Shown here piece by piece: positions 24,479-57,021 of a DNA stretch of 64,000 nt. This DNA comes from Fimbriimonadaceae bacterium. Its GTDB lineage: Bacteria; Armatimonadota; Fimbriimonadia; Fimbriimonadales; Fimbriimonadaceae. How positions within the stretch are numbered: position 1 is the first letter of the stretch; every line of letters starts with the position of its first letter. The stretch covers positions 1 to 64,000 of the forward strand of contig JAICWL010000005.1 in the NCBI GenBank assembly GCA_025934835.1, read 5' to 3'. The notes under the pieces were generated by a model that was given only the letters and a program-made list of their open reading frames with translations, was not told where the DNA came from and ran no database searches. A program made the translations under genes and the position numbers.

Positions 24479-25090
24479 TTAGCGTGTCCGACGGACCCGC
24501 TCGGGAAGCCGGAATAATGCCGCGGCGTCGGAAAGTGCGTCATTCGGAGTCGGTGGCCGGGTGACTATTGCGCCGTCCATGGTCACCGCGAGGAACGGCC
24601 CGAACACCTTAGCCGCAAAGTCGCTGCCCGGTTCGACGCGGCCCTCCCAGGGTGATACCAGCAGACCCAATGTCGGGTCTTGGCTCGCCGCGGTCCAACT
24701 ATCGACATGGAGCTTTCCCGCACGAACCAAGTCGACCACGTAGCCGTAGCTTATGCGGTATGGAGCTCTCGGAGGCCAGCTCGGGAGACAGGGATCGAGC
24801 GGGAAACTGTCCGAGTCCGCGCCTCTAAAGGGGTCCTTCGGGGAAACAAAAATGCTCGGAGCGTCGAGCAACGAAAGGAGCGCCGGCAGATCCGGCGCCG
24901 GCCCGTCGTTCGATTCCTGATAGATCGCCCAAGCCGCGTAGATTTGGCGGAGATTATCGACATCCGCGGTTTCCATCCGCTTTGCTGCAACCCGGCGAAA
25001 TATCAGGCCCGTAATACTGCCGCAGGCGACGAGAACCGCCATCACAAGCAGGGCTTGTCCAAGCGTGAAGCCACGGATGCGCAGGTTCAT
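24479..25090 (-). CDS. Pseudopilin-like (type IV prepilin N-terminus) protein
   Basis: A 203-residue protein with a prepilin-peptidase-type N-terminus: short basic leader, then GFTLGQALLVMAVLVACGS. Cleavage would be after Gly, leaving FTL at the mature N-terminus. The conserved Glu at position 5 of the mature protein is Gln here. DVDNLRQIYAAWAIYQ resembles the helix following the membrane spine in type II secretion pseudopilins. The rest resembles the short secreted prepilin-like proteins common in Armatimonadota and Planctomycetota. No pilus machinery is adjacent. Confidence 0.7.
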   Translation of the reverse strand: MNLRIRGFTLGQALLVMAVLVACGSITGLIFRRVAAKRMETADVDNLRQIYAAWAIYQESNDGPAPDLPALLSLLDAPSIFVSPKDPFRGADSDSFPLDPCLPSWPPRAPYRISYGYVVDLVRAGKLHVDSWTAASQDPTLGLLVSPWEGRVEPGSDFAAKVFGPFLAVTMDGAIVTRPPTPNDALSDAAALFRLPERVRRTR

Positions 25091-52779: not shown

Positions 52780-53184
52780 TCAGCGCATCACGCGCTGCCA
52801 GCAAAACAGGCCTTGGGAAGCCGAGTCGAGGCACATTTGATTGCCGCGTCCATCGATAGCGAAGTCGTACGATGGCAACGGCGGTCGACGCGCGACACCT
52901 GAGTCTGTTAGCACGTCCAAGTCGATATGAAGGGTGTCGCCGGACCGGCGCCAGTGCCCGGCAGCAACCCACCGATAATGAGGGCAGGAGAGTTCGAACC
53001 GCCGATCGGGAAAAAGCTTCATAATGCAGTCCGTACCGTCTTGAAGCGGAAATGGACCTCGCCAGGCGCCATCGACAGTTTGGCCCGTGCAGCCGGCCAG
53101 CGCCGAAGCTATACCGAAGCCGATAACTATGCGCGAGCCGAATCCGAGCACCAAACTGACGTTACCCGTCGCCCACGACTTCAT
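52780..53184 (-). CDS. Small putative lipoprotein
   Basis: From the ATG at 53184 it is 134 residues: a signal helix (VSLVLGFGSRIVIGFGIA) with lipobox SALAGC. The short domain after it has GAWRGPFPLQDGTDCIMKLF, FELSCPHYRWVAAGHWRRSG and CLDSASQGLFCWQR, the look of a small beta-barrel lipocalin-like or META-like domain. Starts at 53154 (TTG) or 53151 (GTG) are possible and would shorten its head-to-head overlap with the divergent fusion gene. The track ORF start at 53448 is not credible. Confidence 0.6.
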   Translation of the reverse strand: MKSWATGNVSLVLGFGSRIVIGFGIASALAGCTGQTVDGAWRGPFPLQDGTDCIMKLFPDRRFELSCPHYRWVAAGHWRRSGDTLHIDLDVLTDSGVARRPPLPSYDFAIDGRGNQMCLDSASQGLFCWQRVMR

Positions 53185-54421
53185 CAGCCCGTGGTGCTGG
53201 ATAGCGTTTTGGCAAACGAGACGCCTCAAGCGCGAGCTCGGCGTCGAGATCGAATGGCTGCCGTACGAAACTTTTCCGCTGGATTCCGAATGGCCGGACG
53301 ACCCAGGGCCAGAAGACCCGGGACTTCCGACTCGGCTCGACTTGATGCTCGCCTTGGAGGGCCTCGAGCTGCCGAAGGTTACTCGCAATCGGCGGGCTCG
53401 CACCCACTGGGCGCATGAAGCGGGCGAATTCGCAAAGACGGAAGGCAAGGGCGACCAGATGGTCTCCGCGCTCTATTCTGCCTACTGGGAAGCGGGGCGA
53501 GATATCGGCGACGCGGGAACTGTGCTGGAGATTGCCAGAGGCGTCGTACGCGACCTTGGCGCGCTGGAGCATGCCATCGGAGAGAGCGCTTTCGCTAACG
53601 CCATTCGCCCATTGGATCCGATCAACGACGCCCGGGGAGTGGTAAGCCTTCCGACGTTCCTCGTCGGCGGTGAATCGCTTCGCGATCCGACTTACGCAGC
53701 GCTTTCGGCGGCCCTCGGAGGGACCTCGAAGCGCACCGGTGATCAGCCGTTTCCGAAGCTGGAATTCCCGGCAGCTAGCTCCCTTCGGCCGTATGTGCTC
53801 GTGGACATGGTGGCTACGATCGACGGCAAAACGGTGAGCGGCGATCGGGACGAGGACGTTATGGACCTTGGGTCCGCAGTCGACAAGCGGTTGATGCAAA
53901 GACTGCAAGAGTGTTCGGATGCCGTGCTTCTCGGAGCAGGCACATTGCGAGCTTCCCCGAAGAGCTGGAATCCTCGCACAGAAAAGCGAATAGTGGTGAG
54001 CCGGTCAGGCGAGGTTCCGGTCGACTCGGAATTCCTGTCGAAGGGTCAGCCGATTTTGGCGACGGGAGGCTCGTCCAGCGTCCGCGCACCGAAGGGAGTA
54101 AAGCTGTTGCGCGCCGGCGGGCAAACTCTGGATTTCGCGATCCTGCTGAACCGCCTTCGGACAACGTTCGGAATCGAACGGCTGCTGGTGCTCGGCGGCA
54201 GCGAGGTCAATGCCGAGTTGCTCAGGCGCGACCTCGTCGACGAGCTGTTTCTGACCGTGGCGCCGAAGGTGAAGTTGGGCCGAAAAGTGCCCACCTACGC
54301 AGGCGGTGAGCCGCTCGACCGTCAACATTTGTTGAACTTCGAACTTGTGGACTCCGCTGCCGTAGGAAGTGAAGTGTTCTTGAGATATCGGAGGGCCGGC
54401 ATCCTTGGCGGTCAAGAATGA
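53129..54421 (+). CDS. Fusion of a DsbA-like domain and a RibD C-terminal reductase domain
   Basis: A 430-residue protein. Residues 8 to about 200 match the DsbA/FrnE (2-hydroxychromene-carboxylate isomerase-like) family: VAHDFISPWCWIAFWQTRRL, KTEGKGDQMVSALYSAYWE, VVSLPTFLVGGE. The active site keeps only one Cys. Residues about 225-425 are a RibD_C/DHFR-like domain: VLVDMVATIDGKTVSGD, DAVLLGAGTLRASPKSW, LLVLGGSEVNAELLRRDLVDEL. The pairing is unusual; a possible role is an NADPH reductase coupled to a thiol or GSH-type transferase. The 3' end overlaps the ABC permease gene by 17 nt. Confidence 0.82.
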   Translation: MREPNPSTKLTLPVAHDFISPWCWIAFWQTRRLKRELGVEIEWLPYETFPLDSEWPDDPGPEDPGLPTRLDLMLALEGLELPKVTRNRRARTHWAHEAGEFAKTEGKGDQMVSALYSAYWEAGRDIGDAGTVLEIARGVVRDLGALEHAIGESAFANAIRPLDPINDARGVVSLPTFLVGGESLRDPTYAALSAALGGTSKRTGDQPFPKLEFPAASSLRPYVLVDMVATIDGKTVSGDRDEDVMDLGSAVDKRLMQRLQECSDAVLLGAGTLRASPKSWNPRTEKRIVVSRSGEVPVDSEFLSKGQPILATGGSSSVRAPKGVKLLRAGGQTLDFAILLNRLRTTFGIERLLVLGGSEVNAELLRRDLVDELFLTVAPKVKLGRKVPTYAGGEPLDRQHLLNFELVDSAAVGSEVFLRYRRAGILGGQE

Positions 54422-56320: not shown

Positions 56321-56439
56321 ACTTTATTATTGTTAAATACAATGTAGGCGAACGAAAGCGGGTGTCCCTTCCCGTCCAATATATGTGTCCAGCGGTGGCA
56401 GGACGCTCAAATTCTTTTGGCCCATTTGCACTAAAAGAG

Positions 56440-56668
56440 GCGGCGTTCGGAACTCTCCGGAACCATACTCCAGTAAAGGGGGAAGAAGCCTGGAGGAGCG
56501 GCGAGCCAATAAAACTTTGCCGGTCTAATGGCGTCAAAGCCATCATACATCGTTCATGGTACCAAGGCATCTTCGGGGCCGCTTAGCTTACGAAGAGCCG
56601 ATCGCCTACTTAGGTAGGAAGTGGCATAGGCTGCCGGGAACAAGCAACCCGGCGGCCACTTTCTTTTT
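56440..56668 (+). ncRNA. Candidate structured non-coding RNA or long leader
   Basis: A 371-bp gap between genes holds a chain of hairpins: GTTCGGA with TCCGGAAC (56445-56463), CTCCAG with CTGGAG (56468-56495), ATGGC with GCCAT (56528-56543), GGCaTCTTCG with CGAAGAGCC (56566-56599), CCTAC with GTAGG (56605-56618), then a strong terminator. No ORF of any length fits. It matches none of the RNAs I can recognise by eye (RNase P, tmRNA, SRP, 6S, T-box, TPP, SAM, cobalamin, c-di-GMP). It may be an independent sRNA or a riboswitch-like leader of the downstream TMEM14-like gene. Confidence 0.5.
56619..56668 (+). terminator. Intrinsic terminator ending the structured region
   Basis: GGCTGCCGGG pairs with CCCGGCGGCC (one G-U pair), extended by AAGTGG with CCACTT, followed by TTTCTTTTT. 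This is the most canonical terminator in the window. It lies 23 nt before the ATG of the next gene, so it either ends a separate RNA or controls that gene. Confidence 0.85.
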
Positions 56669-56691
56669 AAGGGCTGCGGTACGCTGAGCCC

Positions 56692-57021
56692 ATGAGCTGG
56701 CTTACTCTCGCTGTGCTGATCTATGCGCTCATCATGTTCGGTGGCGGAGTGGGCGGCTACGCGGTGGCGCATAGTCTCCCATCGCTGATCACCGGCATCG
56801 TAGCCGGGGTTCTGCTCGTGATCGCCGCCGTATTGGCGCGAACCAACTCAAAGGTGGGTTACGGCTTGGCCGCCGTCGTTGCTCTCGCCCTGGGGATCGT
56901 GTTCATCCGCAGATATTTCGAGACCGGTAAGCCGATGCCGAGCCTCGGGCTGCTCGGGCTTTCGGTCTTGATGCTCGTGGTCCTCGCCGCGGGCCACTTC
57001 ATGCTGAAGAACCCGTCGTAA
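56692..57021 (+). CDS. TMEM14/UPF0136-family membrane protein
   Basis: A 109-residue protein with four membrane helices: LAVLIYALIMFGGGVGGYAV, LITGIVAGVLLVIAAVLART, GYGLAAVVALALGIVFI and LGLSVLMLVVLAAGHFM. The Gly-rich GGGVGGYAVAHSLPSLITG and the RRYFETGKPMPS loop fit the TMEM14 family. Function in bacteria is unknown. Its start is 23 nt after a strong terminator, so expression may need read-through or anti-termination. The stop is 3 nt from the convergent ygfZ stop. Confidence 0.8.
   Translation: MSWLTLAVLIYALIMFGGGVGGYAVAHSLPSLITGIVAGVLLVIAAVLARTNSKVGYGLAAVVALALGIVFIRRYFETGKPMPSLGLLGLSVLMLVVLAAGHFMLKNPS

Follow-up and report, generated by a model that had tools for sequence, protein, structure and literature searches.

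The locus analysed here is an intergenic interval on the plus strand of a 64,000-nucleotide (nt) stretch of DNA from a Fimbriimonadaceae bacterium (contig JAICWL010000005.1, positions 1 to 64,000; hereafter the window). It lies between a gene for an ATP-binding cassette (ABC) transporter and a gene for a membrane protein of the Tmemb_14 family, here called TMEM14 (Table 1). It holds a dense series of stems and a terminator, which we read as a small RNA (sRNA) gene, probably under the control of an extracytoplasmic function (ECF) sigma factor. The T-tract of the terminator ends at 56668, 23 nt before the ATG at 56692. The fold of the interval (56321-56691) has an energy of −139.4 kcal/mol (z = −3.8), equalled by none of 100 shuffles, and the predicted transcript folded by itself also has a z-score of −3.8. 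An earlier note, made from the letters of the window, had described five stems and a long GC-rich terminator with ACTTTCTTTTT in this place and had proposed either an undescribed small RNA or a riboswitch for the TMEM14 gene. The stems, the terminator and its 23-nt spacing to the ATG are all present in the sequence. The chain was said to begin at 56445; its first stem (CGGA-ACTC-TCCG, about 56448-56459) exists, but it overlaps the predicted promoter and thus probably lies outside the RNA. Nor is the region literally free of reading frames, as had been stated, since open reading frames (ORFs) of 74 amino acids (aa) on the plus and 89 aa on the minus strand, recognized by sequence alone, overlap it.

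A DNA search found the 3' part of the element in 9 of 41 genomes, all from the genus of the window. With R1, a covariance model built on the last 107 nt of the RNA, we detected it in 12 of the 20 Fimbriimonas-genus genomes, in a single copy each (E < 1e-19), as well as in G044, a genome of another genus (53.5 bits). A locus in a third genus (G057), found via its promoter as described below, matched R1 over the full model with 44.2 bits; the genome-wide R1 search had missed it, so that the true range of the RNA is wider than listed here. Weak R1 matches at L022 and L024-L027 (24.9-31 bits), of which L024 adjoins coding-looking sequence, were not accepted as homologues. An exact-pattern scan of GTDB contigs returned the known genus members together with scattered matches in unrelated taxa, at about the number expected by chance.

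Alignment for compensating changes, a check proposed in the earlier note, revealed strong covariation among the relatives. In the 14 sequences, 97.6% of pair cells hold standard pairs, and two-sided changes occur in 15 of 24 pairs; with the partners slid by one to three columns, 28-52% of the cells are paired, and none of 500 shuffles reaches the observed values. Changes on both sides affect six of nine pairs in hairpin 1, where 97.6% of cells are paired, and seven of ten in the terminator, whose loop AAGCA is kept in all genus members. Three stems have comparative support, namely hairpins 1 and 2 and the terminator stem. The 5' part varies freely in length and sequence, far more than the 3' part. 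Twelve of 14 members have the GGAAGTGGCAT segment, between hairpin 2 and the terminator, in unchanged form; it is a candidate pairing region. The covariance-model comparison with known RNA families gave no match in the whole window at the gathering thresholds of Rfam (4227 families), and chance-level matches only when permissive E-values were applied to the locus and eight homologous loci. No sRNA of the Armatimonadota is described in the open-licence literature that we searched, though absence there is not proof. With no Rfam match, strong covariation, and a promoter motif and terminator of its own, the hairpin cluster is, on comparative grounds, a real and undescribed bacterial small RNA with its own predicted start and stop signals, as the first proposal of the earlier note had it. 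It is, by the same comparison, a new family absent from Rfam, but of a known functional kind.

In an unbiased two-box search of the sequence preceding the RNA core, GGAAC-N17/18-CGTA came out on top, with 6 of 12 regions exact, where none of 30 shuffles gave more than 3. The spacer is 18 nt (17 once), whereas 51 to 85 nt separate CGTA from the RNA core; with a fixed spacer and a variable distance, the motif behaves as a promoter should. ECF promoters as a class have AAC at −35 and CGT at −10 (PMC8103513). At most one deviation from GGAAC-N18-CGTA is seen in 11 of the 14 loci, the window having one mismatch. Scans for sigma70-type promoters and with a terminator consensus found nothing, the simple terminator pattern missing the terminator of the RNA.

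The same promoter precedes an rpoE-like operon elsewhere in the genome, the main clue, which the earlier note had overlooked. Two genomes scanned for the sigma region-4 family gave 21 and 54 matches; among 30 ECF loci scanned, GGAAC-N18-CGTA stands just upstream of the gene in two only, which are orthologues, one per genome. At the cut-off applied, 19 of the 20 genus genomes have a single copy of this sigma gene, and the motif lies upstream of all 19 orthologues, always with a spacer of 18. In the three genomes examined (G000, which is that of the window, G008 and G014), it forms an operon with a zf-HC2 anti-sigma factor and a MucB/RseB protein (in G000, on contig C45, PF13490 and PF03888, the latter with 1.5e-10). 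In G008 this sigma gene lies at C1:1706236 and the modelled part of the RNA at C1:4878181-4878290. A tree of the sigma factor unites the genomes that have the RNA in one group (one change, 0 of 500 shuffles), set apart by a weakly supported branch (83/40).

We trained a weight matrix solely on the 19 sigma-gene promoters and let it scan the RNA upstream regions with no hint as to position. Scores of at least 9 were reached by 12 of 13 RNA upstream regions and by 15 of 310 controls, which comprised other ECF genes, TMEM14 genes without the RNA and tiles of the window (Mann-Whitney p = 7e-9, with relatives that are not fully independent). The top-scoring "control" was the TMEM14 gene of G057 (19.2 of 21.9), and on inspection this locus proved to have the same succession of promoter, RNA, terminator and leaderless TMEM14. 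R1 subsequently recognized the RNA there, so that the matrix had led to the correct prediction of a locus. The site in the window (56449-56475) scores 10.9 (p = 0.018, 1000 shuffles).

Table 1. Features of the locus and of the related sigma factor operon (+, plus strand).
Feature	Position	Strand	Description and basis
Intergenic interval	ABC-transporter gene end 56320 to Tmemb_14 ATG 56692	+	
Predicted ECF-sigma promoter	56449..56475	+	−35 GGAAC 56449-56453, 18-nt spacer, −10 AGTA 56472-56475 (CGTA in most relatives)
Predicted sRNA transcript, ~188 nt	~56481..56668	+	Promoter position, terminator, fold z-score, homologues by model R1; 5' end placed from the −10 box, uncertain by a few nt
Conserved hairpin 1	56566..56599	+	GGC-A-TCTTCG pairs with CGAAGA-GCC; AAGGC and GGCCG nearly invariant
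Conserved hairpin 2, CCTAC/GTAGG	56605..56618	+	Paired in 97.1% of cells; the most distant members show compensatory changes
GGAAGTGGCAT segment	56617..56627	+	Between hairpin 2 and terminator; partly single-stranded; alignments A3, A5, A6
Predicted Rho-independent terminator	56629..56668	+	GGCTGCCGGG / AACAAGCAA / CCCGGCGGCC and ACTTTCTTTTT; stem 56629-56657
Predicted TMEM14 leaderless promoter, −10, GGTACGCT	56678..56685	+	6 nt before ATG
Tmemb_14 family membrane protein, 109 aa	56692..57021	+	PF03647, E = 3e-19; neighbour, outside the RNA
RpoE-like operon	L199 1441-3593 (G000 C45); also L193, L191		Sigma factor, zf-HC2 anti-sigma factor, MucB/RseB

The start signal of the RNA matches that of an envelope stress regulator, which makes it look like the RNA component of a response to envelope stress. 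The comparison of genomes brought out a conserved structured RNA, its terminator, a promoter motif that the sigma operon has as well, and a separate promoter for TMEM14. We consider it likely that the locus encodes a stand-alone, trans-acting sRNA of about 188 nt, induced by stress in the manner of sigmaE, transcribed from an ECF promoter and intrinsically terminated. What follows on its transcription and its induction by stress, on the targets of its base-pairing and on the direction of its effect is inferred. Envelope stress would release the RpoE-like ECF sigma factor from a membrane-bound anti-sigma/RseB-like pair, and the freed sigma factor would raise its own operon and the sRNA. RNA polymerase with this sigma factor would transcribe the sRNA up to its own intrinsic terminator, and the sRNA would then base-pair with messenger RNAs (mRNAs), most likely of envelope proteins, and lower their expression. 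We hold it very doubtful, though conceivable, that this is a separately evolved non-coding RpoE-type stress arm of the Armatimonadota acting on leaderless mRNAs, where the start codon would be blocked directly, through pairing of the conserved UGGCAU with AUGCCA at the 5' ends of mRNAs.

Several observations weigh against an envelope stress sRNA of this kind. The window promoter has AGTA in place of CGTA and its score is middling; in two of the 14 loci (L015, L019) the expected place lacks a convincing promoter and in a further one (L018) the promoter is weak, the best matrix site being off the expected place in L015 and partly so in L018. Genome-wide, the exact motif is not enriched over the reversed pattern, so that the regulon would be small. 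Seven sister genomes of the genus have the same sigma factor and promoter, and the RNA was not detected in them; the unfiltered model found none around the GcvT genes of this sister clade, in regions that perhaps did not include the TMEM14 neighbourhood for all, and none was found before TMEM14 in 27 further loci of the family. Finally, 13 of the 14 loci, including those of two other genera, have TMEM14 as the gene immediately downstream of the RNA, which hints at a link in cis.

This last point also speaks for the second proposal of the earlier note, in which the RNA would be a cis-acting TMEM14 leader, a riboswitch or attenuator with a conditional terminator, read-through of which would express TMEM14, perhaps under ECF-sigma control. 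The neighbourhood holds even in G008 and G012, where GcvT is elsewhere, and the GCC of hairpin 1 has a choice of two partners that exclude each other, namely the upstream GGC, which all 14 members retain, and the downstream UGGC. In the window sequence, pair probabilities indicate a possible alternative fold in which the GGAAGTGGCAT segment pairs with GCCG of hairpin 1, and energy favours the downstream UGGC. This alternative pair, however, leaves the terminator stem untouched and is lost in G057. Moreover, every folded member forms the terminator, and no antiterminator overlapping it was seen in the minimum free energy folds. Between terminator and ATG, GGTANNNT stands 6-7 nt before the TMEM14 start codon in all 11 RNA-bearing loci measured, GGTACCCT stands 7 nt before it in a twelfth (G044), and the GGTANNNT box can be seen ahead of TMEM14 also in family genomes that do not have the RNA. 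Judged by this box, TMEM14 is arranged like a gene with a leaderless mRNA and a promoter of its own. G007 also has the RNA, and there an ORF with a pseudopilin-like N-terminus (RRAFTLIELLVVIAIIAILAAILFPVF) follows in place of TMEM14 (L017, 281-1150 and 1501-1604, both on the minus strand); the neighbourhood is thus conserved strongly, not absolutely. Because TMEM14 has a predicted leaderless promoter of its own and the RNA occurs without TMEM14, the RNA is most likely not a TMEM14 riboswitch or leader, and we regard the cis-acting alternative as unlikely.

It is likewise improbable, and quite so, that the locus encodes an independent sRNA outside the ECF regulon, transcribed from a housekeeping promoter further upstream, with GGAAC and CGTA being a conserved RNA 5' part or due to chance. 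A good motif is missing in two or three members and TANNNT-like boxes occur just upstream at some loci, but the two boxes show no consistent pairing with each other, their spacer is constant where the distance to the RNA core is variable, they match a matrix trained on the promoters of another gene, and this matrix correctly predicted the G057 locus. A protein-binding or housekeeping RNA (6S-like, RNase P-like, tmRNA-like or a sponge) in place of a base-pairing regulator we consider extremely improbable. The Rfam 6S model (RF00013) has no match in 13 genomes, a weak test as it also misses most control genomes, which leaves the 6S RNA of the clade unaccounted for, and the conserved motifs contain GGA. 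The RNA does not, however, have the shape of one long hairpin typical of 6S RNA, related genomes lack it, and its promoter is of the stress type. RNase P RNA and transfer-messenger RNA (tmRNA) were rejected as identities, since the copies of this genome lie elsewhere in G000, at C9 and C66.

Some further observations concern the neighbour and the motif. TMEM14 genes across the family appear leaderless (window 56678-56691; loci L055-L084); for leaderless genes in general, a crude check within the window gave no clear signal. Sequence complementarity to TMEM14 starts, judged by eye, is not conserved. The Tmemb_14 family includes plant FAX1, a fatty-acid exporter (PMC4344464), and we may speculate about a membrane theme common to the RNA and its neighbour. 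Exact GGGAAC-N18-CGTA sites precede ORFs at L214, L210 and L234 (each from 1501), which by eye resemble genes for a fasciclin-type secreted, a PDZ-type exported and a membrane-fusion protein, respectively; they may belong to the same regulon or be due to chance. A second strong matrix match in the window lies at 24987 on the plus strand (15.2, GCAAC-N18-CGTA). The ORF at 53087-54421 combines a DsbA-like thioredoxin domain with a RibD C-terminal domain, an unexpected fusion, and has a weak ECF-promoter-like site nearby, at 53009 (score 14.2).

In Salmonella, the sigmaE-controlled RybB and MicA make omp mRNAs decay faster (PMC1804206), and the sigmaE-dependent FoxI and FoxJ of Fusobacterium do comparable work (PMC11005410). 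With such sRNAs documented in Proteobacteria and Fusobacteriota, the Armatimonadota would be the third distant phylum to have one, which would suggest that RpoE-type sigma factors are generally coupled to a repressor RNA, or that this coupling evolved more than once. Promoter, ends and regulator are all precisely predicted, and the locus would exemplify how what looks like a riboswitch leader can be a neighbouring, independent RNA gene.

Like MicA, RybB and MicL of the Enterobacteria (PMC1804206, PMC8103513), the Fimbriimonas RNA would be a stand-alone intergenic RNA with an ECF/RpoE promoter and an intrinsic terminator, and its sigma factor is encoded with an anti-sigma factor and an RseB-like protein in the layout of rpoE-rseA-rseB. 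It differs from them in having no visible relation in sequence or structure, a greater length (~188 nt) with three conserved stems in the 3' part, an armatimonadotal host and an anti-sigma factor of the zf-HC2 type; the leaderless-target geometry held very doubtful above would, if true, also be unlike the Hfq-associated pairing of MicA and RybB with omp leaders. With transcription-attenuating riboswitches it has in common a structured RNA and terminator just before an ORF, but TMEM14 has its own predicted promoter, no antiterminator is seen and the RNA also occurs without TMEM14. FoxI and FoxJ of Fusobacterium nucleatum (PMC11005410) provide the precedent for a sigmaE-driven sRNA outside the Proteobacteria; they have no sequence match to the Fimbriimonas RNA, and FoxJ was shown by experiment, the Fimbriimonas RNA by comparison alone. 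The parallel extends to how the two RNAs were read, as FoxJ (~156 nt) had been misannotated as the 5' untranslated region of the next gene, ylmH, and the Fimbriimonas RNA likewise resembled a TMEM14 leader.
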